Source of the DNA: Caecibacter massiliensis
GTDB lineage: Bacteria > Bacillota > Negativicutes > Veillonellales > Megasphaeraceae
Assembly (NCBI GenBank): GCA_900095875.1
Contig: LT608311.1
Location: 930,001-994,000, forward strand
Direction: 5' to 3'
DNA length: 64,000 nucleotides
Shown: positions 19,414 through 29,890 of the stretch, piece after piece
Position numbering within the stretch: the first letter of the stretch is position 1
How the letters are laid out: every line of letters begins with the position of its first letter
The notes under the pieces: generated by a model
Told to the model about the DNA's origin: nothing
Seen by the model: the letters and a program-made list of their open reading frames with translations, nothing else
Database searches by the model: none
Made by a program: the position numbers and the translations under genes

Positions 19414-19443
19414 TTTACATTAAATCTGGCTTATTGGTATAAT
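19414..19443 (+). promoter_or_regulatory. Promoter of the kinase pair
   Basis: TTTACA (19414-19419), 18-base spacer, TATAAT (19438-19443). The transcript would start near 19450, which rules out the upstream ATG at 19446 and supports the start at 19485. Confidence 0.72.
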
Positions 19444-19484: not shown

Positions 19485-20813
19485 ATGCATTCTTCGTCTC
19501 TGGCAGTCGGTCTCCTTCTTCTTGCCCTGCTGCCATCTATTTTCGTCCAATACAGAGTCTTTGTCCCACTCCTGACACCTTACGAGTCACACCGTCTGGC
19601 AAAGGCATTTATCTTAATGTATGTTGTTATTACTCTCTGTGTTGTTCTGGTTTTCTCACAGGGCATCATCGGCATCGCCTGGATTTCATTCAAGGACATC
19701 ATATCCTTGCACGCGATTCCTTACCTGATTCTCGGACTGCTGTTTGTGCCTGCGTACCGTCTGCAATATATATTCGTCCTGGGGATGCAGGGTCTGTATA
19801 TTGTGGCACTTCTCACGCTCATTATGAACGTAGAGCTCCTGTTCATTCCTCCCAGTATATTTTTCCAACATATTACTCCGTTTCTCCTGGCATACATGCT
19901 GTCCTATATCATCCTTGCACCACTGCTGCTAAAATTTTTCCGTTCCTTGTTCATCCCCTATCATATGGTCGATATGCTGTCGTTCTGGAAATACACCGCC
20001 TGGATTCCAGTCTCACTGATCCTATATTCTGCCATTCTGGCCCATACCAATGAACCAATAGCCCGCGAATACCTCATTCCGCGCGTACTGCAGGCCTTGT
20101 TTGGGATTTGTATTGCCATTACGATGTATCTGGGCACGCGGAAAATGCATTATGCCATCGAACTCAAGCGTGAAAATGCGGCCCTGCTGACACAGATGGA
20201 AATGTTCGCCGACTATACGCGGATGCTTCAGTCCGCTCAGCGGCGCATGTCCATATACCGCCATGACACACGGCATCAGCTGCGCCTTCTGTCCAAATTA
20301 ATCCAAGAAAAAGACGATACAGCTTCACTGGCCTTACTGAAAACGCTCACGCAGGAACTGGCTCAGACCCGTCCCTATCACTGGGGAGAAAACACCTGTA
20401 TCCGGAAGACACTGCTTCCGCTCATCGAGAAAGCCCGGGAAAACGGTATCCCCGTCATGGCAGACCTCTCGCTGGCGCCGCATCTTCCCTTTGAACAGGA
20501 ACTGGCTCAGGCGGCCGCCCGTCTGGTAAACGCCGCGATTGCCGTCAGCCGCTCTCAGGATAAAAGCAAGCAGTCTATCACAATCATTGCCCGTCAGACA
20601 GAAACGACAATCATGCTTCTCATCGGCAACCGTCAGACCGGCCCGGTATTGATGGATGCTGAAGGGCATCCACAAAACGGCCCATATGCCGAAGTGATAC
20701 CGGCCCTGCATCAGTTTATAATAAATCATCAGGGAGTCGGCCGATATACCTGCAAGAAGGGATGGGTTATCGCCAACGTGCGTATTCCCTGTAAGGGAGG
20801 TGCGGCCGTATGA
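19485..20813 (+). CDS. Sensor-kinase-like protein A: keeps phospho-acceptor His, degenerate ATP site
   Basis: Integral-membrane GHKL-type sensor (AgrC/LytS-like) of 442 residues. Residues 1-230 carry about six or seven membrane segments, followed by a coiled linker. The dimerisation helix holds a good H-box, YRHDTRHQ, with His260 (codon 20262-20264). The ATPase half is damaged: the N-box reads RLVNAAIAV, so the usual Glu before Asn is Val, and no GxG G-box can be found where QNGPYAEV stands. The start at 19485 is eight bases behind GAAGG. It overlaps the next gene by ATGA, implying coupled translation and a 1:1 product ratio. It probably cannot bind or hydrolyse ATP alone. Confidence 0.8.
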   Translation: MHSSSLAVGLLLLALLPSIFVQYRVFVPLLTPYESHRLAKAFILMYVVITLCVVLVFSQGIIGIAWISFKDIISLHAIPYLILGLLFVPAYRLQYIFVLGMQGLYIVALLTLIMNVELLFIPPSIFFQHITPFLLAYMLSYIILAPLLLKFFRSLFIPYHMVDMLSFWKYTAWIPVSLILYSAILAHTNEPIAREYLIPRVLQALFGICIAITMYLGTRKMHYAIELKRENAALLTQMEMFADYTRMLQSAQRRMSIYRHDTRHQLRLLSKLIQEKDDTASLALLKTLTQELAQTRPYHWGENTCIRKTLLPLIEKARENGIPVMADLSLAPHLPFEQELAQAAARLVNAAIAVSRSQDKSKQSITIIARQTETTIMLLIGNRQTGPVLMDAEGHPQNGPYAEVIPALHQFIINHQGVGRYTCKKGWVIANVRIPCKGGAAV

Positions 20814-22159
20814 TATGGATACTCATTACTACCTGTCTGCTCACCCTGTCCATTGTACCGCCGGCCTATCTGCAGTATGCTTCTTTTGCCCCCTTGCTAT
20901 CCATAACGCAAAAAAAATGGGTGTGTGCCGGATACGCTGTCTGTTTCATGGCAGAAACACTGGTCCTGATCTATCTCTTTCTCGGCGGGCAGTGGTCCCA
21001 CTCTATTTTCATGTTCAAAAAGCTGTATTCCCTTTTATGGATTCCCTATTTTATCTGGGCCGTCATCATCATCCGTCCCTATTTTTTCCGGCATATCTAC
21101 GTATTTGCCCTGCGCACCATATTCATGCTGATGCTCCATACCTTCATCTATTACGTATTCTATGTATTCATTCATCTGGGCATCTTACCTGTCGGCGAAA
21201 GCTCCCTGCTCTACCCACTCGAACTGTTTGTTTACACCATCAGTTATATACTCTGTCTGCCTTTCCTAATCCGGTATTTCAATGAAATATTCCGCAATGA
21301 CCATGCGCTGAGCACACGGGTTTACTGGAAATATATCTGTGTCCTTCCCTGCCTGCTCCTGGCAGAATCTCTGTTTTTTGTCACCCAGTCTATCCCCAAT
21401 GTAATCTATTTCGAAATGCTGGTGCCACGAATCATCATTTCCTGCGCTACCCTGCTCGTCGCCCTGAGCGTACGGGCCGGCATCAATCAGGCTGATGCCA
21501 TTTATTTGACGCACGAACGCAATGACGCCCTGGCCGCTCAGATCCAGTCCAATCAGAATTACGCCCAGTCGCTGAATGAATCACAGACATTGATGGAACA
21601 GTTTTACGAAAAAAGACGGGAATATTTACAGAAATTGACAACCCTCATATCGGATCACGACTATGATAAAGCCCTGGCCCTGATTGAACACATAGGTCTG
21701 AAGCTCAATCAGACCAAACGGCAGCAGTATTGTAAAAACGCGGTCGTCAATGCCGCCCTTACGACTTATCTCAGTGCGGCCATACGCAAAGGTATCGCCG
21801 TCACGGCCCAGGCCGATATCCCGGACTGCAGTCCGGCCTTCAGCACGGACCTGTCCATGGTCTTTTCCAATCTCATTGAAAACGCTGTCCATGCCAGTGA
21901 AAAACAGGCAGAAGGCAGGCGCGTCCTGACGCTTCTCGTCGTTCGTCAGGAAGATATGCTGAACATTCTCATAAAGAACCGCTTCGATGGCACGGTCATA
22001 TTTAACGAAGACGGGCTGCCAACGACCGATGCCCCGGGCCACGGCATCGGCATGAAATCCTTGGCCCGCTTCCGGGACGAATACCATGCCAATATCATCT
22101 GTACCTGCGAAAAGGGCTGGTTCAGCACCTACATCCGGCTGGCACTGCCAGACACATAA
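20810..22159 (+). CDS. Sensor-kinase-like protein B: intact ATP site, no phospho-acceptor His
   Basis: Tandem paralogue of the preceding gene, 449 residues with the same layout of six or seven membrane segments, linker and GHKL ATPase. Here the ATP site is complete: N-box SNLIENAVHAS (Glu357, Asn358) and G-box GHGIGMKSL (410-414). At the H-box position the sequence reads FYEKRREYL, so Glu267 (codon 21608-21610) replaces histidine. It is the mirror image of the defect in protein A. The start overlaps the upstream stop by four bases. By family logic B would phosphorylate His260 of A in a heterodimer, and A would pass the phosphate to a response regulator, most simply the LytTR gene at 29126. 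Confidence 0.8.
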   Translation: MIWILITTCLLTLSIVPPAYLQYASFAPLLSITQKKWVCAGYAVCFMAETLVLIYLFLGGQWSHSIFMFKKLYSLLWIPYFIWAVIIIRPYFFRHIYVFALRTIFMLMLHTFIYYVFYVFIHLGILPVGESSLLYPLELFVYTISYILCLPFLIRYFNEIFRNDHALSTRVYWKYICVLPCLLLAESLFFVTQSIPNVIYFEMLVPRIIISCATLLVALSVRAGINQADAIYLTHERNDALAAQIQSNQNYAQSLNESQTLMEQFYEKRREYLQKLTTLISDHDYDKALALIEHIGLKLNQTKRQQYCKNAVVNAALTTYLSAAIRKGIAVTAQADIPDCSPAFSTDLSMVFSNLIENAVHASEKQAEGRRVLTLLVVRQEDMLNILIKNRFDGTVIFNEDGLPTTDAPGHGIGMKSLARFRDEYHANIICTCEKGWFSTYIRLALPDT

Positions 22160-22420: not shown

Positions 22421-25400
22421 TTATGCCTTGTTCTGGGCAGCCATAGCTTTCAGTTCTGGTTTAAATTCTTCTACCAGTTTCGCTTCTGCTTTGGCGCCTT
22501 TCTGCAGGGCTTTGTAAATGATTTCTGCCATTTCATAGCGGGTCATCGTGCGTTCGCCATGATACTTGCCATCTTCATACCCCTGGATGATGCCGTTGCC
22601 AGCCAGGCGGGATACGGCTTCATATGCCCAGTGGTTTTCCGGTACATCGGGGAATTCCTTGGACAGGTTCGGATTGAGGACGGACAGGAGGGCATCCATC
22701 TGATGCTGCAGGGTATTGACCTGGGATTCGAGATTCTTGACGTATTTTGCGCTTTCCGCCATCTGTTTATTCCGTGCTTTGTTGCCGCCGCGGCCGATGC
22801 GGACCGCTACGCCGCCGCCGATCATATTGTCATCCGAGCCGACTGTACCGGACAGGTTGACCATGACGTCTTCATTGGGGCGATAGAAGAGGCCCAGAGC
22901 CGTAGCCGTTTCGTTCTTGTAATTACCAACGGCTGCTGCCACATTGAACTTGGAATCGGCGTCAAATTCGAGAGGATGGAGGTTGGCCATAGCTGCTGCG
23001 TTAGCACCAACTTCGTTGATGCGGCTGTCCATCTTGCTGACGCGGCGGTTGGTTTCATAGAGCTGTGATCCATTGACCGCATCCAGGCTGTTGGCCGAAA
23101 GTTCTCCCGCTGCCACGTTGGTGATCTTCTGATTATTGGCGTTGATGCCATTATCATCAATATAGGTCTTGTCGCCAACTTTGTACGAAGAAGCTGTCAT
23201 GCTGCCCGATACGCTGGCATTGCCGCCTACGCTGAGGTCTTTGGCAACGGTGACCGTATCCTGGAAGTTTGCGGCTCCGGTTACATCGAGGGTGCCATCA
23301 ATAGTCGCGTTGTTGGTCACATGCAGGTCTTTCGTAGTAGTCGTGCCACCGACCGTGAGGTCTTTCATGACTTCAGCATAATCCATAGTCGCTTTGCCCG
23401 TTTCGAGGGTATTGCCGGAAATGGTCGTCTTCGTAATCGAACCGTCGCCGATTGCCGTGTTGTGGTCCGTATTTTCGAAAGTCGTGCCATCCGTCGTCGT
23501 AGTCACGGTGCTCTTGCCTACCGTATCTTTGATGCTGGTAGTTGCCGTGTTTTCAATTTCTGCCGCACTGTTGGACAGTTTTTCTTCCGCCTTGTTCACC
23601 AAGTTCTTGGCATCGTTGGTAATCGTTCCCTGTTTTGCCGTATTGGTGATATCCGCGCTTCCCTGACTTACGCTGGTGCTGGAAGTTCCATCGCTTGTGC
23701 TGACAGTCGTATTGACAAATCCATTGTCGGCATCTTTCAGGATATCGATGATGCTGCCGCTGACCAGTTTTTCCGTCGAAGTCGTTGCCGTCTTAACAGA
23801 AGCATTGTACTGACTATCGCTGGCTTTGATCAGCTGTTCCGATTTGTCTACGGTGTTGTTGGTGTTGTTGGACTTGGTCCCGTCGGTGATGGAAGAGGCA
23901 AGGCTCTTTGCATCCTGGTTCACAACGGTGGTATTGGTGCCGTCCGTTACGGAGGAAGCGATCTGATCTGCTTTCTGCAAGTCGTTGGATGTATTGGTTC
24001 CGTCCGTAATGTTGGTATTGGTCTGACCGGCAATGGTGTCGATAGTAGTCTTGTTGCTACCATCAATCAGCTGGGATTTTTCTTCCGCTGCACCGCGGAG
24101 ATAGGAAGCGGTCTTGCCATCGGCCTGGCTCATTTCTTCCGTAGTCTGATAAGACAGCTGGGTAGAAGTATTGGAACCGGCATCGTTCGTCACTTTCTGT
24201 ACGATGGAGCTGGTAGCATCGGTTTCTACATCGATAGCTTTGTTGGTAATCTTGTTCTTCGCTTCGTTGGTGATGTTTTCTGCCGTCAGGCTGCTGTCAC
24301 CAGTTACGGTCGTGGTCTGGTTTCCGCCTACCGTGGTGCTCAGGTTAGCTTTATAGTCTTCCGTCACATCGCCGGTCACAGTAGTAGACTGTTTTCCAGT
24401 GATGGTATTGGTCTGGTCACCAGTGATATTATTGATTTGATTGCCATTGACTGTGTGCTTTTCTTCACCGGTAATGGTGGTTTCCAGTCCGCCATTGTAG
24501 TTTTCCGTAGCTTTTCCAGTTACGGTTTCAGTCAAAGTACCGCCCACCTTGGTATCCAGGTCGGACTTGTAGTCTTCTGTGACTTTGCCGGTGACGGTGG
24601 TCTTCATTTCGCCGCCGACAGTCGTGGTCAGGTCTTTGCCAACCGTGTTGGTCATGTTTTCCGTAGCGTTGTTGATGATATCCTTGGCATCATTGGCGAT
24701 CGTACCGTTCTTAGCCGTGTTGGTGATATCTTTTGCCGTCTGGGTGACGCCAGTGCTGTTGGTGCCATCCGTTACGGCGCTGCTGATGAACGGGTTGGCT
24801 GCATCGTCGAGGTTCTTGATGACGTCGATGATGCTGCTGCCGCTTACCAGGGCATCTTCCATCTTAGTAGCTGTCTTAGACGTAGCACTGTACTGGGTAT
24901 CGCTGGCTTTGATCAGCTGTTCCGATTTATCCACGGTGTTGTTGGTATTGTTGGACTTGGTCCCGTCGGTGATGGAGGAGGCAAGGCTCTTTGCATCCTG
25001 GTTCACAACAGTGGTATTGGTGCCGTCCGTTACGGAGGAAGCGATCTGATCTGCTTTCTGCAAGTCGTTGGATGTATTGGTTCCGTCCGTAATGTTGGTA
25101 TTGGTCTGGCCGGCAACCGTGTCGATGGTGGTCTTCTTGTCACCATCAATCAGCTGGGATTTTTCTTCCGCTGCACCGCGGAGATAGGAAGCGGTCTTGC
25201 CATCGGCCTGGCTCATTTCTTCCTTGGTCTGATAGGACAGCTGGGTGGAAGTATTGGAACCGGCATCGTTCGTCACTTTCTGTACGATGGAGCTGGTAGC
25301 ATCGGTTTCTACATCGATAGCTTTGTTGGTAATCTTGTTCTTCGCTTCGTTAGTGATGTTTTCTGCCGTCAGGCTGCTGTCACCAGTTACCGTCGTGGTC

Positions 25401-28400
25401 TGGTTTCCGCCTACCGTGGTGCTCAGGTTAGCTTTGTAGTCTTCCGTCACATCACCAGTTACGGTTTCCGTCAGAGTTCCTTTTACGGTATTGCTCTGGT
25501 TGCCATTGACCGTAGTGCTCTGGCTGCCATAAGTTTCTGTCACAGCTCCTTTGACGCTTTCCGTCTTGCTGCCACTGATGGTATTGGTCTGGTCTCCTGC
25601 TACCACATTAAACTGATTTCCGCCTACATTGGTGCTCTGGTCACCGTCAACCGTAGTTGCCTGGCTGCCGTATTTTTCCGTGACACTACCTTTGACCGTT
25701 TCCGTCTTGCTTCCACTTACCGTATTCTGCTGATTGCCAGCTACGATATTGGTCTGGTTTCCGCCTACAGAAGTTCTCTGGTCTGTCTTAACGTTGGTAA
25801 CCTGGGCGTTGAAGTTTTCTGTTTCCGTTCCTTTTACACTGACCGTACGGTCTCCGGACACGGTATTGGTCTGATTACCTGCCACATAATGGGTTTCATT
25901 TCCGCCCACCTTGGTGTCCAGGTCGGACTTGTAGTCTTCTGTGACTTTGCCGGTGACGGTGGTCGTCATTTCGCCACCAACAGTGGTCGTCAGGTCTTTG
26001 CCAACGGTGTTAGTCATGTTTTCCGTAGCGTTGTTGATGATATCCTTGGCTTCGTTAGTAATAGTACCTTGTTTCGCCGTATTGGTAATATCCGTCGTAG
26101 TCTGGGTGGAAGAAGTCGTGTTAGTTCCATCGGTGACTTCACTGGAGATGTTATCTACCTTCTGATCTACCTTGGAGAATACCGTATCAGACGAATTAAT
26201 CTGATTCAGGATTTCATCGACACGCTGTTGGAACGTCGAGGTCTTACCTTCCTTATCTTGGAGGACACTACTGGATTCCGTTGCACTCTGAGTTGCTGTA
26301 TTGGTGTTACTATCTTTATCCTTCAGTGTGCTCTGTGACTGAGTAGATGTCTGTGTAGACAGGTTGCTGTTCTTTTCAGAATCGATAACCTTGGACGTTA
26401 CATCGTTGCCTTCTACAGTCAAAGTACTCTTGTTCCAGTTACCATCTGCATCGGTAGATTTCGCCCAGGTGGAAGTCCCATTTTCATCATAATCGATGGC
26501 GCTTTCTTTTTCACTGCCATCTTTGGTGCTGGTGGCTTTCTTGTAGCCCGTGATTTCACCGGCTGCCACTTTCGTGCTGGCCGTTACGTTGTTGTCCCCT
26601 ACAATGCCGTTCTTGGTCAGGTCGATTTCATCCACATTCAGCTTGCCGTTGACCGTCAGGTCGCCGCCGATGGTGGCATCACCGCTGGTGGTAATGGTTT
26701 CAGCGCTCAGGTTCTTCACACCAGTGAGGTTGCCATTTTGCATGGTTGCCGTGCCATCAGAGATGCTCTTACCCTGGATAGCACCGCCGGCGGTCAGGTC
26801 ACCGGTAATGGTGGCACTGCCTGCTGTGAGAGCGCCCTGGATGGAAGCGCTGGCCCCTGTAATGGCACCGCCTGCGTGAATGTCACCCAATGCGGAGATG
26901 TTGCCCGTAGAAGTTACGGTGCCGCCGGTAATGGTACCGCTGGTGTTGATGTTGCCATTGGTGATGGTAGCAATCCCATCGGTCAGGGTCTTGCCGGTTA
27001 CCGTTCCGTTGCTCATGGAAGCACCCTTACCGTCGGTTACGGTTTCGCCGGTGATGGTTGCCCTAGAAGTGACATTTCCATTTTCATCTACGGTGAAAGC
27101 CCCGTTGGCCCCTTTGATCTTGCCGTCAGCGCTCATAGCTGCCTTGGCTTCGCTATAGGTATCGCCGCCGGTGTAGACGCCGTCTTTATCCACCACCGTG
27201 CTGTTAGTGCCAACCTTGATTCCATTTTCGTTCATGGTGATCTGGTTGTCCTTGCCCTTGTTCAGGATCATTTCATTGGCATCGGTCTTGGAAGTGGTCA
27301 CGTTGCCCTGGGCGTCAATGGTAGTGGTGTTCTTTTGCAACACATTGTCGTTGCTCAGACTCAGTCCGCTGTTGACGGCTTCCACCAGTTTGGTATCTGC
27401 TGCCACACGGGCCGAAGTTTCTGCCGTAATCTTATCATCCAGTACCGTATCGGCTGCTTTACGTTCTGCGGCTTCGTTGTCGATATTAGTCTGCAGGGTC
27501 GCATCGGCTGCTTCCCGGGCAGCAGCTTCATTGGCATCTGCCTGGTTCAGGGCCGTGAATCCATCAGCCATATTCTTGTTGATGGTATTGAACCCATCCA
27601 CCATATTCTGGTTAACCTGTTCAATGACCTTGTCTTGGGCTGCATCAGCCCCGATCCGGGCGGCGGTTTCTTTGGCCAGAGCAGCGTCCAGGTTGGTGAC
27701 GTTTTCGCCAATGGTGTTGGCCGCTTTCACAACGGCCCCATCCTGTACGGCCGCATCAGCCTTGCTTACATAATTATCAGATGTCTGTTTTTCCAGATAT
27801 TCCTTCACATTGGTGATGCGTTCGTTCAGAGCCGTATCGCCAGCTTCACGGGCCGTTGCTTCGGCAGTGATAGCATCAGCATTAGATTTAACCTGGGTAT
27901 CGAGAGCGGAAAGGTTAGCCCCTACACTATTGGTTTGGACCACATAGTTTCCGGTCTTCGTTGTATCATCGTAAACAGCTTCCGCTTCTACTTTCCCTGC
28001 TACCGATACATCACCACTAGAGGTGATATCACCAGTGGAAATACTTCCAGATGTCAATTGCCCACGGATCTTCAGATCTTTGACGGTCTGATTTTCTTTG
28101 GTCCCTACAATCAGATTGCCATCCTTGGAAACATGCAGGGCCGTGCTGGTCTTATCCGTTGTAAACTGATCCGCATTGGCTTTGACCTGTGTATCCAGTG
28201 CAACAATATTTTCACCTACCGTATTGCCGGCCGTTACATAATTACCGCTGGTAAGGGTATTATCCACGACGCCCTGCATGCCTACGACTTTATTTTTAGC
28301 AGTAATATTGGTCTGGGAAACGATTTCCTTAGCACCTACCGTCGCCTGAGACGAAATATTTCCTGTTGCCGCAATGGTTCCTTGAGAAATAATGCTATTC

Positions 28401-29032
28401 GTGCCAATCAGGTCTTTCCCTTTTATGGTACCAGTAGCCGTAACCGTCTGACCAGCAATGGTTCCTACGGCTGTAATATTTCCCCGGCTATTAACACTTC
28501 CTGCATTCACAGCACCACCGGCACTCAGCGTTCCCGAAATGCTAGCTGATTTTGCAGAAACCGGACCAGCAACCTTCAATCCCGTTACATCCGTCGTCGT
28601 TGTGGTTTTTGTAGCGCTGTCATATGTTTCTTTCTGTAATGTATTGTCCGAAGAAAGAGTCAGTTTATCCGTTCCCAAGTTATCGATGACGCTCTGATGC
28701 TGGGCTAATTCAGTTTCGACGCTCTGCATAGCGGTTTTCAAATCTCCGATATCTCTTGCATTATTGGTAGCTTTCATCACAGTACCACTGATATTATCAG
28801 CATCTTTTTGAGTTCCTGTGATAACACTAGTACCATTAATCGTCGCAGAATTTATAGCCGCATAGCTAAATCCTCCGACCGGGAGGAGCATGAGGGCTGT
28901 GATGGCGGCCAGGGCCAGGCGTTTGGCTTTATCTCCTGTGCTGGCGGCTTTGGTGCGGCCTTTGGCTAATTCCGAGGCTACGACGTAGCAATTTCTTGAT
29001 TTACTCCAGATGACTTTAAATATTTTATTCAT
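22421..29032 (-). CDS. Giant trimeric autotransporter adhesin with C-terminal SLH domain
   Basis: YadA/Hag-like trimeric surface protein of 2203 residues. Residues 1-58 are an ESPR extended signal peptide (MNKIFKVIWSKSRNCYVVAS...). A head of short beta-repeats, coiled-coil stretches rich in AAREAAD-type repeats, and a Thr/Asn/Gly-rich stalk follow to about 1960. A neck (SLDAVNGSQLYETN, about 1980-1995) leads to the YadA membrane anchor at about 2013-2083. Unlike classical YadA the chain continues: a coiled coil (about 2084-2125) and one SLH domain (FPDVPENHWAYEAV..., 2126-2185) that would lie in the periplasm and grip peptidoglycan. GGGAG precedes the ATG. The LytTR gene lies 93 bases upstream on the same strand. 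Confidence 0.92.
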   Translation of the reverse strand: MNKIFKVIWSKSRNCYVVASELAKGRTKAASTGDKAKRLALAAITALMLLPVGGFSYAAINSATINGTSVITGTQKDADNISGTVMKATNNARDIGDLKTAMQSVETELAQHQSVIDNLGTDKLTLSSDNTLQKETYDSATKTTTTTDVTGLKVAGPVSAKSASISGTLSAGGAVNAGSVNSRGNITAVGTIAGQTVTATGTIKGKDLIGTNSIISQGTIAATGNISSQATVGAKEIVSQTNITAKNKVVGMQGVVDNTLTSGNYVTAGNTVGENIVALDTQVKANADQFTTDKTSTALHVSKDGNLIVGTKENQTVKDLKIRGQLTSGSISTGDITSSGDVSVAGKVEAEAVYDDTTKTGNYVVQTNSVGANLSALDTQVKSNADAITAEATAREAGDTALNERITNVKEYLEKQTSDNYVSKADAAVQDGAVVKAANTIGENVTNLDAALAKETAARIGADAAQDKVIEQVNQNMVDGFNTINKNMADGFTALNQADANEAAAREAADATLQTNIDNEAAERKAADTVLDDKITAETSARVAADTKLVEAVNSGLSLSNDNVLQKNTTTIDAQGNVTTSKTDANEMILNKGKDNQITMNENGIKVGTNSTVVDKDGVYTGGDTYSEAKAAMSADGKIKGANGAFTVDENGNVTSRATITGETVTDGKGASMSNGTVTGKTLTDGIATITNGNINTSGTITGGTVTSTGNISALGDIHAGGAITGASASIQGALTAGSATITGDLTAGGAIQGKSISDGTATMQNGNLTGVKNLSAETITTSGDATIGGDLTVNGKLNVDEIDLTKNGIVGDNNVTASTKVAAGEITGYKKATSTKDGSEKESAIDYDENGTSTWAKSTDADGNWNKSTLTVEGNDVTSKVIDSEKNSNLSTQTSTQSQSTLKDKDSNTNTATQSATESSSVLQDKEGKTSTFQQRVDEILNQINSSDTVFSKVDQKVDNISSEVTDGTNTTSSTQTTTDITNTAKQGTITNEAKDIINNATENMTNTVGKDLTTTVGGEMTTTVTGKVTEDYKSDLDTKVGGNETHYVAGNQTNTVSGDRTVSVKGTETENFNAQVTNVKTDQRTSVGGNQTNIVAGNQQNTVSGSKTETVKGSVTEKYGSQATTVDGDQSTNVGGNQFNVVAGDQTNTISGSKTESVKGAVTETYGSQSTTVNGNQSNTVKGTLTETVTGDVTEDYKANLSTTVGGNQTTTVTGDSSLTAENITNEAKNKITNKAIDVETDATSSIVQKVTNDAGSNTSTQLSYQTKEEMSQADGKTASYLRGAAEEKSQLIDGDKKTTIDTVAGQTNTNITDGTNTSNDLQKADQIASSVTDGTNTTVVNQDAKSLASSITDGTKSNNTNNTVDKSEQLIKASDTQYSATSKTATKMEDALVSGSSIIDVIKNLDDAANPFISSAVTDGTNSTGVTQTAKDITNTAKNGTIANDAKDIINNATENMTNTVGKDLTTTVGGEMKTTVTGKVTEDYKSDLDTKVGGTLTETVTGKATENYNGGLETTITGEEKHTVNGNQINNITGDQTNTITGKQSTTVTGDVTEDYKANLSTTVGGNQTTTVTGDSSLTAENITNEAKNKITNKAIDVETDATSSIVQKVTNDAGSNTSTQLSYQTTEEMSQADGKTASYLRGAAEEKSQLIDGSNKTTIDTIAGQTNTNITDGTNTSNDLQKADQIASSVTDGTNTTVVNQDAKSLASSITDGTKSNNTNNTVDKSEQLIKASDSQYNASVKTATTSTEKLVSGSIIDILKDADNGFVNTTVSTSDGTSSTSVSQGSADITNTAKQGTITNDAKNLVNKAEEKLSNSAAEIENTATTSIKDTVGKSTVTTTTDGTTFENTDHNTAIGDGSITKTTISGNTLETGKATMDYAEVMKDLTVGGTTTTKDLHVTNNATIDGTLDVTGAANFQDTVTVAKDLSVGGNASVSGSMTASSYKVGDKTYIDDNGINANNQKITNVAAGELSANSLDAVNGSQLYETNRRVSKMDSRINEVGANAAAMANLHPLEFDADSKFNVAAAVGNYKNETATALGLFYRPNEDVMVNLSGTVGSDDNMIGGGVAVRIGRGGNKARNKQMAESAKYVKNLESQVNTLQHQMDALLSVLNPNLSKEFPDVPENHWAYEAVSRLAGNGIIQGYEDGKYHGERTMTRYEMAEIIYKALQKGAKAEAKLVEEFKPELKAMAAQNKA
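23800..25430 (-). repeat. Internal duplication in the adhesin stalk
   Basis: About 545 bases at 23800-24345 recur nearly identically at 24883-25428, an offset of 1083 bases (361 codons). Both encode the ENITNEAKNKITNKAIDVE... to TVDKSEQLIKASD block. A second repeated block (ITNTAK...DLDTKVGG) appears near 24546-24760 and 25909-26125, offset about 1362 bases. Copies differ mostly at third positions. They invite recombination and stalk-length variation. Confidence 0.85.
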
Positions 29033-29125: not shown

Positions 29126-29857
29126 TTATGCTTCTTTTTTAAAAATAAACTTGAAATATTCTTCCTGGAATTGGCGGTATTTCCGTTTTGCCAGCGGAAT
29201 CTGATATCCCTGGATTTCGATATAATCGCTTTTGATGACATGAATGGCCGCCTGATTTACGATATACCCTTTGCCCGGTGAAATAAACTGGCCGGGAGAA
29301 ATGGAATCCAGTGTCGCAAGCAGCTGTGCCAGGGCCTGGCGCGTCTCCAGAACCGCCCCATCGTGGGTATATACCTTCTGGATATGGCCTTTACTTTCTA
29401 CAAACAGGATATCGTTGATTTCTTCCACTTGTATGCCGCCCCCGACAAGACGGAAAATGATTTTTTTGCTATGCCGCTGCCGGATGCTTTCCATGACCCG
29501 GTTCATAGCCTGATCAAACTGTTTTTGTGTAAACGGTTTGACGAGGTAATGCGCGGCCTGGACACCGAAGGCATCGACTGCAAACTCATCGCTCGTCGAA
29601 AGAAAGATGATTTCCGCCCGGCTTTTCTGGTTTCGCATTTCGGTTGCGACATCGGTTCCCAGCATACCAGGCATACAGATATCGAGCAGTACAATATCAA
29701 AATTCATTTCTTCTTCAAAGGCATCCAGAAACAGCATGGCATTATCATACCGGGAAATTTTGATTTCATACGTGCTGTCTGCAAAATAAGTACGCACGGC
29801 TTTTTCCATGATATCCAGCTGTTCCGGTATATCGTCACAAAGGGCAATCCTCAGCAT
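29126..29857 (-). CDS. LytTR-family response regulator
   Basis: DNA-binding response regulator of 243 residues, AgrA/LytR type. The receiver domain has the acidic pair LCDD (residues 6-9), the phospho-acceptor aspartate in VLLDICMPG (about residue 56), the switch Thr/Ser region FLSTSDE and the conserved lysine in LVKPF. The LytTR domain occupies the last ~100 residues (VEEINDILFVESKGH...). The start is ATG at 29857 with AAAGGAGG about eight bases upstream; the earlier ATG has none. No cognate kinase is adjacent; the nearest are the two kinase-like genes beyond the adhesin. It sits just upstream of the adhesin gene on the same strand, so it may be both its operon partner and its activator. Confidence 0.9.
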   Translation of the reverse strand: MLRIALCDDIPEQLDIMEKAVRTYFADSTYEIKISRYDNAMLFLDAFEEEMNFDIVLLDICMPGMLGTDVATEMRNQKSRAEIIFLSTSDEFAVDAFGVQAAHYLVKPFTQKQFDQAMNRVMESIRQRHSKKIIFRLVGGGIQVEEINDILFVESKGHIQKVYTHDGAVLETRQALAQLLATLDSISPGQFISPGKGYIVNQAAIHVIKSDYIEIQGYQIPLAKRKYRQFQEEYFKFIFKKEA

Positions 29858-29890
29858 AGTATACCTCCTTTCAATATATGATATGAGCAT

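Follow-up and report, generated by a model that had tools for sequence, protein, structure and literature searches.

Histidine kinases are taught as homodimers. The stretch of DNA analysed here, 64,000 nucleotides long and referred to below as the window, comes from the 2.65 Mb genome of a Megasphaera (class Negativicutes) and raises the question of whether two adjacent genes, encoding proteins A and B (Table 1), make up a single kinase between them. Both proteins are polytopic membrane proteins and AgrC-like kinases. A sequence-only reading of the locus had described them as ATGA-overlapping paralogues that can be aligned across the dimerisation and ATPase regions. The gene coordinates agree with this description, as does a BLASTP alignment of A with B (26% identity over 440 columns, E 1e-45), which spans the sensor, DHp and ATPase regions. 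A Pfam search with A matched no family; B matches HATPase_c_5 at 7e-15 and otherwise gives sub-threshold hits. The promoter-like site upstream of A agrees with 11 of 12 consensus positions, with a TG preceding the second hexamer, suggesting that A and B are probably a transcription unit of their own, apart from the upstream LysR gene.

Table 1. Features of the A-B locus, in window coordinates
Feature	Position	Strand	Size or basis
Protein A gene, His partner	19485..20813	+	442 aa
Protein B gene, CA partner	20810..22159	+	449 aa
ATGA start-stop overlap of A and B	20810..20813	+	Sequence
Promoter-like site TTTACA-18-TATAAT	19414..19443	+	Upstream of A; consensus match only
LytTR response regulator (REC + LytTR), probable cognate	29126..29890	-	Pfam; sole LytTR protein in genome
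Trimeric autotransporter adhesin, candidate target	22421..29032	-	Pfam: ESPR, Gp5-type trimerisation repeats, YadA anchor, C-terminal SLH

A and B have lost complementary motifs

Aligned with its relatives, A has an intact H-box, YRHDTRHQ, containing His260. The segment of B that faces RHDTRHQ reads YEKRREY and places Glu267 in the His column. At the other end of the kinase it is B that is complete: its N-box (NLIENAVHAS) and G-box (GHGIGMKS) are both intact and its ATPase domain is canonical. The segments of A facing these two boxes are RLVNAAIAVS and PYAEVIPA. The alignment, together with the HATPase_c_5 match, upholds the earlier assignment of the H-box with His260 to A, which has no G-box, and of the N-box, the G-box and Glu267 to B. 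One detail of that assignment needs correction. The N-box of A is indeed destroyed, but not by a Val at the catalytic Glu: in the ungapped alignment, the column of the catalytic Glu (Glu357 of B) holds Asn349 in A, Val348 lies one column earlier, and the next Asn column holds Ala350.

Domain scores agree with the motifs. On a CA-domain profile built from intact single kinases, A scores 51 bits and B 137, and the lowest intact single kinase scores 143. We looked for a concealed G-box in A and found none. The sole His in the DHp hairpin loop region of B, His283, was rejected as a replacement phosphoacceptor, as it is not conserved in the other kinases that keep the CA domain and have lost the His (CA-partners, as opposed to His partners). 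Thus A has the AgrC-like H-box RHDxRH and B (YEKRREY) does not; B has the N-box, with its catalytic Glu and Mg-binding Asn, as well as the G-box, and A does not; only the pair as a unit has all of them. By motif, by domain score and because one member of many homologous pairs has no CA domain at all (see below), the phosphoacceptor and ATPase functions are assigned to two different proteins.

AlphaFold models of A (pLDDT 88) and B (pLDDT 89) both consist of an N-terminal helix bundle, a long DHp hairpin and a CA fold, the architecture of an AgrC-like receptor kinase. For each, the best PDB match is the AgrC kinase (6e52/6e95), and 4bxi is matched as well. The confident model of A and its match to AgrC suggest that the C-terminal domain of A keeps an ordered, AgrC-like CA fold in spite of the lost nucleotide-binding motifs.

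Split pairs recur across the Negativicutes

The A-B pair is present in 3 of 15 genomes of the genus. The two other Megasphaera pairs show reciprocal loss as well. Their A proteins have RHDSRHQ but neither an N-box nor a G-box; in their B proteins, where N-box and G-box are intact, YKKRKA or YDSRKA takes the place of the H-box. Single proteins that combine the two sets of motifs, which the sequence-only reading had counted as evidence against itself, do occur among the relatives (G007, G008, Anaeroglobus, M. cerevisiae and others), but these are intact single kinases with no adjacent partner, and they look like the unsplit form.

Profile searches of 380 Negativicutes genomes and, in a second round, of 189 genomes from a single family brought up numerous neighbouring kinase pairs. 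We read 53 tandem pairs, consisting of the three Megasphaera pairs and 50 loci that were chosen by adjacency and score and are not exhaustive. The search for co-conserved neighbours with the same reciprocal loss was successful: 45 of the 53 pairs, from at least three bacterial families, show it and 8 do not. A strict rule, by which one member has the His and no working CA domain and the other has no His and an intact CA domain, is satisfied by 39 loci and the three Megasphaera pairs. Three further reciprocal pairs are interrupted, one by a frameshift (L126) and two by a contig end (L160 and L185). The CA domain of the His partner is only partly degenerate in L145 and L146, with Asp for Glu, an altered G-box and scores of 84-97 bits. 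In most pairs the two genes share an overlap of 4, 7 or 13 nt. Both functions are kept by every one of the 37 kinases that have no adjacent partner.

The exceptions are of four kinds. Both members are intact in L141; the CA-partner retains a His in the column in L144, L171 and L140; the His partner retains an N-box in L138; and no clear His partner is present in L139, L143 or L187. At these last three loci, neither member has a clear RHDxRH and one keeps the ATPase motifs. Some of the genomes concerned have additional kinase genes, which might supply a His partner.

The His is lost in 43 of 46 CA-intact kinases that have an adjacent CA-less His partner, versus 3 of 44 others (Fisher 3.5e-18, uncorrected for kinship); this association comprises just 4-5 phylogenetically independent contrasts, too few for a powered paired sign test. 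We regard the reciprocal loss as beyond chance, because two other Megasphaera genomes and 42 more pairs of the class share it. Tandem position alone was rejected as a cause of motif loss: no His loss was found in the tandem AgrC-like kinases read in clostridial genomes, one of which has three tandem kinases, all with the His.

The His partner takes three forms and the split arose repeatedly

In Megasphaera and in some pairs of family f24, the His partner is full length with a degenerate CA domain. In L121-L129 and many f24 pairs it consists of sensor and DHp only, about 290-310 aa. Here the protein terminates inside the DHp hairpin or where the hairpin finishes, and the CA domain is truly absent. 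In seven loci (L158, L188, L189, L190, L194, L195 and L204) it is reduced to the DHp, a protein of ~100 aa.

Trees of the sensor and DHp columns unite the CA-partners from three sources, Megasphaera, family f5 and genus g62 of family f24, in one clade (support 100/99). For the corresponding His partners, a single origin is not rejected (p 0.37). This branch therefore seems to have split once, long ago, the dead CA domain being deleted later outside Megasphaera. In a second branch, the first genes and the second genes of the pairs form two groups, and which of them has lost the His varies. The CA-partner is encoded first in the g57 lineage and L145/L146; most g65 pairs, like L138/L142, encode it second. 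Since the His-losing gene differs between lineages, a single clade of all CA-partners of the second branch is rejected (AU test, p 1e-5; 1e-4 without the H-box columns). A swap of gene order was also rejected as the explanation of the reversed polarity, as the second genes cluster by sequence although both types of partner, His and CA, occur among them. On a 133-row tree the CA-only state needs 9 changes, 6 of which are forced by well-supported branches. The trees of the g65 partners branch alike, as expected for co-inherited genes. As judged from these trees, related bacteria arrived at this division of labour several times.

A LytTR regulator and an adhesin accompany the pair

A LytTR regulator lies 7 kb from A-B in the window, nearby though not adjacent. 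It is 71-76% identical to the regulators near the two other Megasphaera pairs and 55-58% identical to those directly abutting the split pairs L121-L124 and L126-L129. Identity to M. cerevisiae is 52%, and elsewhere 30% or less. We found no AgrC-like kinase in the host genome besides A and B. The remaining PF14501 matches there score far below B and were rejected as partners of the regulator; the one inspected, L002, has a HisKA-type H-box. The three LytS/YesM-type kinases of the host were rejected as well, as they have AraC-type regulators of their own. A and B are therefore the probable partners of this regulator.

Between the pair and the regulator sits an adhesin of 2203 aa. An ESPR-type adhesin gene also adjoins the regulator in the split-pair loci L121-L124 and L126. 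This shared synteny points to pair, regulator and adhesin as a conserved module, in which the adhesin is probably the regulator's target, and it offers a lead on the regulation of trimeric autotransporter adhesins in Negativicutes.

The SLH domain of the adhesin follows the YadA membrane anchor and could anchor the protein to peptidoglycan on its periplasmic face. An open frame of 1005 aa (23321-26338, + strand) runs antisense to the repeats of the adhesin and is probably their compositional by-product. A short gene with a signal peptide was looked for near the regulator in the window, and nothing convincing was seen. Near two split pairs elsewhere, there are small genes resembling those of secreted peptides (L159:2018-2236, - strand; L144:5927-6199, + strand), whose products end in DGDVWVVE and DGGVWVTE, respectively. 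Both are close to a gene for a clostripain-like protease, with Peptidase_C11 confirmed in L144; a peptide signal and its processing enzyme are possible roles for them.

A proposed kinase assembled from two receptors

Based on these observations, we propose that A and B are obligate halves of one AgrC-like kinase, in which B would phosphorylate His260 of A within an A:B complex and phosphorylated A would pass the phosphate to the LytTR regulator. We put the probability of this reading at roughly 80%. Its starting point would be the tandem duplication of a normal single-gene kinase, after which one copy lost the ATPase and the other the phosphoacceptor His. Coupled translation would yield the two membrane proteins at similar levels, and they would associate through their DHp helices, in the simplest form as an A:B heterodimer with a four-helix bundle. 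The ATPase domain of B would then act on His260 across the dimer, and the regulator, once phosphorylated by A, would probably control the adjacent adhesin. Because A:A has no ATPase site and B:B no phosphoacceptor, any activity should need A and B together; both homodimers would be silent and output would require both sensor halves. It is very probable that such receptors function solely in mixed pairs. From the sequences we infer each of these elements: the physical heterodimer, the phosphotransfer, the pairing with the regulator, the signal and the adhesin as target.

On balance, we also favour a broader reading, somewhat less firmly than the one for A and B: that the Negativicutes have a family of obligately heterodimeric receptor kinases with several independent origins in tandem duplication and reciprocal loss, of either polarity, some of them made of a membrane ATPase subunit and a free His subunit of ~100 aa, and each acting as an AND gate of two receptors that feeds a LytTR regulator.

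How the two halves meet is the point on which the main rival differs. Here a B homodimer without the His would phosphorylate a separately dimerising A, which would serve as a phosphotransfer protein, much as CheA4 phosphorylates CheA3 across separate proteins (PMC3591291). The sequences fit an A:B heterodimer and a B dimer phosphorylating an A dimer alike. The DHp-only His partners (L188-L190, L194, L195 and L204) resemble a stand-alone phosphotransfer protein, and such a relay may fit these cases better. Most pairs, however, keep homologous sensors and DHp hairpins in both members and have overlapping genes, which suits two proteins that join directly in one dimer. For AgrC, phosphorylation in trans between the protomers of a dimer has been reported (George Cisar 2009, as cited in PMC6066662), and on the strength of that secondary account an A:B heterodimer is the simplest form. 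We consider it plausible that A and B form a heterodimer rather than a B homodimer with A as its relay substrate, and a relay unlikely, if clearly the strongest of the alternatives.

In a third reading, one member is a regulatory pseudokinase of the DivL or RetS kind that tunes another, complete kinase, the reciprocal loss being coincidental. Histidine kinase pseudokinases and inhibitory heterodimers do exist (ChrS/HrrS, PMC9491836; RetS/GacS, PMC12189002). However, the host offers no other AgrC-like kinase to be tuned and has a single LytTR regulator, 45 of the 53 pairs show complementary loss, and the ATPase domain of the His partner is often wholly deleted; we judge this reading improbable.

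Genes are disrupted in two of the three Megasphaera pairs, by a 1-bp deletion in A (G006) and by a CAA to TAA nonsense mutation in B (NM10). At both loci (L039:9052-10619 and L038:8912-10267) one partner is broken and the other is intact. The system may be dispensable or degenerating there, or the assemblies may be faulty. Between the two other Megasphaera pairs (G002 versus G006), dN/dS is 0.17 for A and 0.23 for its dead CA domain, and 0.19 for B and 0.13 for its H-less DHp. These values point to purifying selection on A and B alike, their non-catalytic parts included. That A and B are decaying duplicated pseudogenes is accordingly the least probable reading: the broken frames in G006 and NM10 and apparent frameshifts in the CA-partners of L125 and L126 speak for it, but the frames in the window are intact, selection is not relaxed, the CA region of A is predicted as an ordered AgrC-like fold, and the pairs, whose partner phylogenies match, have been maintained in different families.

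Relation to known kinases

A division of this kind is reported from Mycobacterium tuberculosis, where the adjacent genes Rv0600c and Rv0601c, of the system with TcrA, are said to separate the ATPase and His-accepting functions. It is one instance, and its domains are divided differently from those of A and B. The closest single-protein relatives are the AgrC-type GHKL kinases (PF14501), which share with A and B the polytopic sensor, the RHDxRH H-box, HATPase_c_5, the LytTR regulator and the best structural match (6e52, 4bxi). In AgrC the His and the ATPase domain are in one protein; in A and B they are divided between two membrane proteins. In the account of AgrC given in PMC6066662, mixed dimers phosphorylate in trans, so that complementary defects could be rescued in principle. 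That kinase is a homodimer from a single gene, unlike the natural two-gene receptor proposed here.

In how their motifs are divided, A and B resemble CheA3 and CheA4 of Rhodobacter sphaeroides, one of which has the His and the other the ATPase; neither of these two autophosphorylates alone, and their complex acts as one kinase (PMC3591291). CheA3 and CheA4 are chemotaxis proteins that belong to a cytoplasmic cluster; they have a separate P1 domain, and their architectures differ (PMC3591291). In contrast, A and B are homologous membrane receptors derived from duplication, each with a sensor and a DHp. The CheA domains P1 (HPt) and P5 were not among the Pfam results for either protein. ChrS/HrrS (PMC9491836) and RetS/GacS (PMC12189002) form heterodimers of histidine kinases, as we propose for A and B, but each includes at least one complete kinase and shows no reciprocal loss.

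The sequence-only reading is well supported, and the phenomenon extends further than that reading had envisaged. It knew of no named system of such a form in this family. That statement has to be qualified, given CheA3/CheA4, but among AgrC-like receptors we found no split kinase, and a literature search for split kinases in Negativicutes also returned none. The division of a kinase between two proteins is thus already known, and what is new is its occurrence in homologous membrane receptors, its repeated origin and its two polarities. These would be natural receptors whose homodimers should be dead and whose signalling must pass through a mixed complex. With the split pairs, direct genetic tests could tell cis from trans phosphorylation and show how sensor halves cooperate, and synthetic biology could use them as ready-made obligate two-input switches. 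They also present a clean case of duplication, degeneration and complementation, with a polarity of loss that flips between lineages.

The His partners of ~100 aa (L158, L188-L190, L194, L195 and L204) are Spo0B-like in layout. These DHp proteins, with the H-box RHDLRHHY, have no membrane sensor, and their genes overlap the 3' end of a gene for an H-less full-length kinase.
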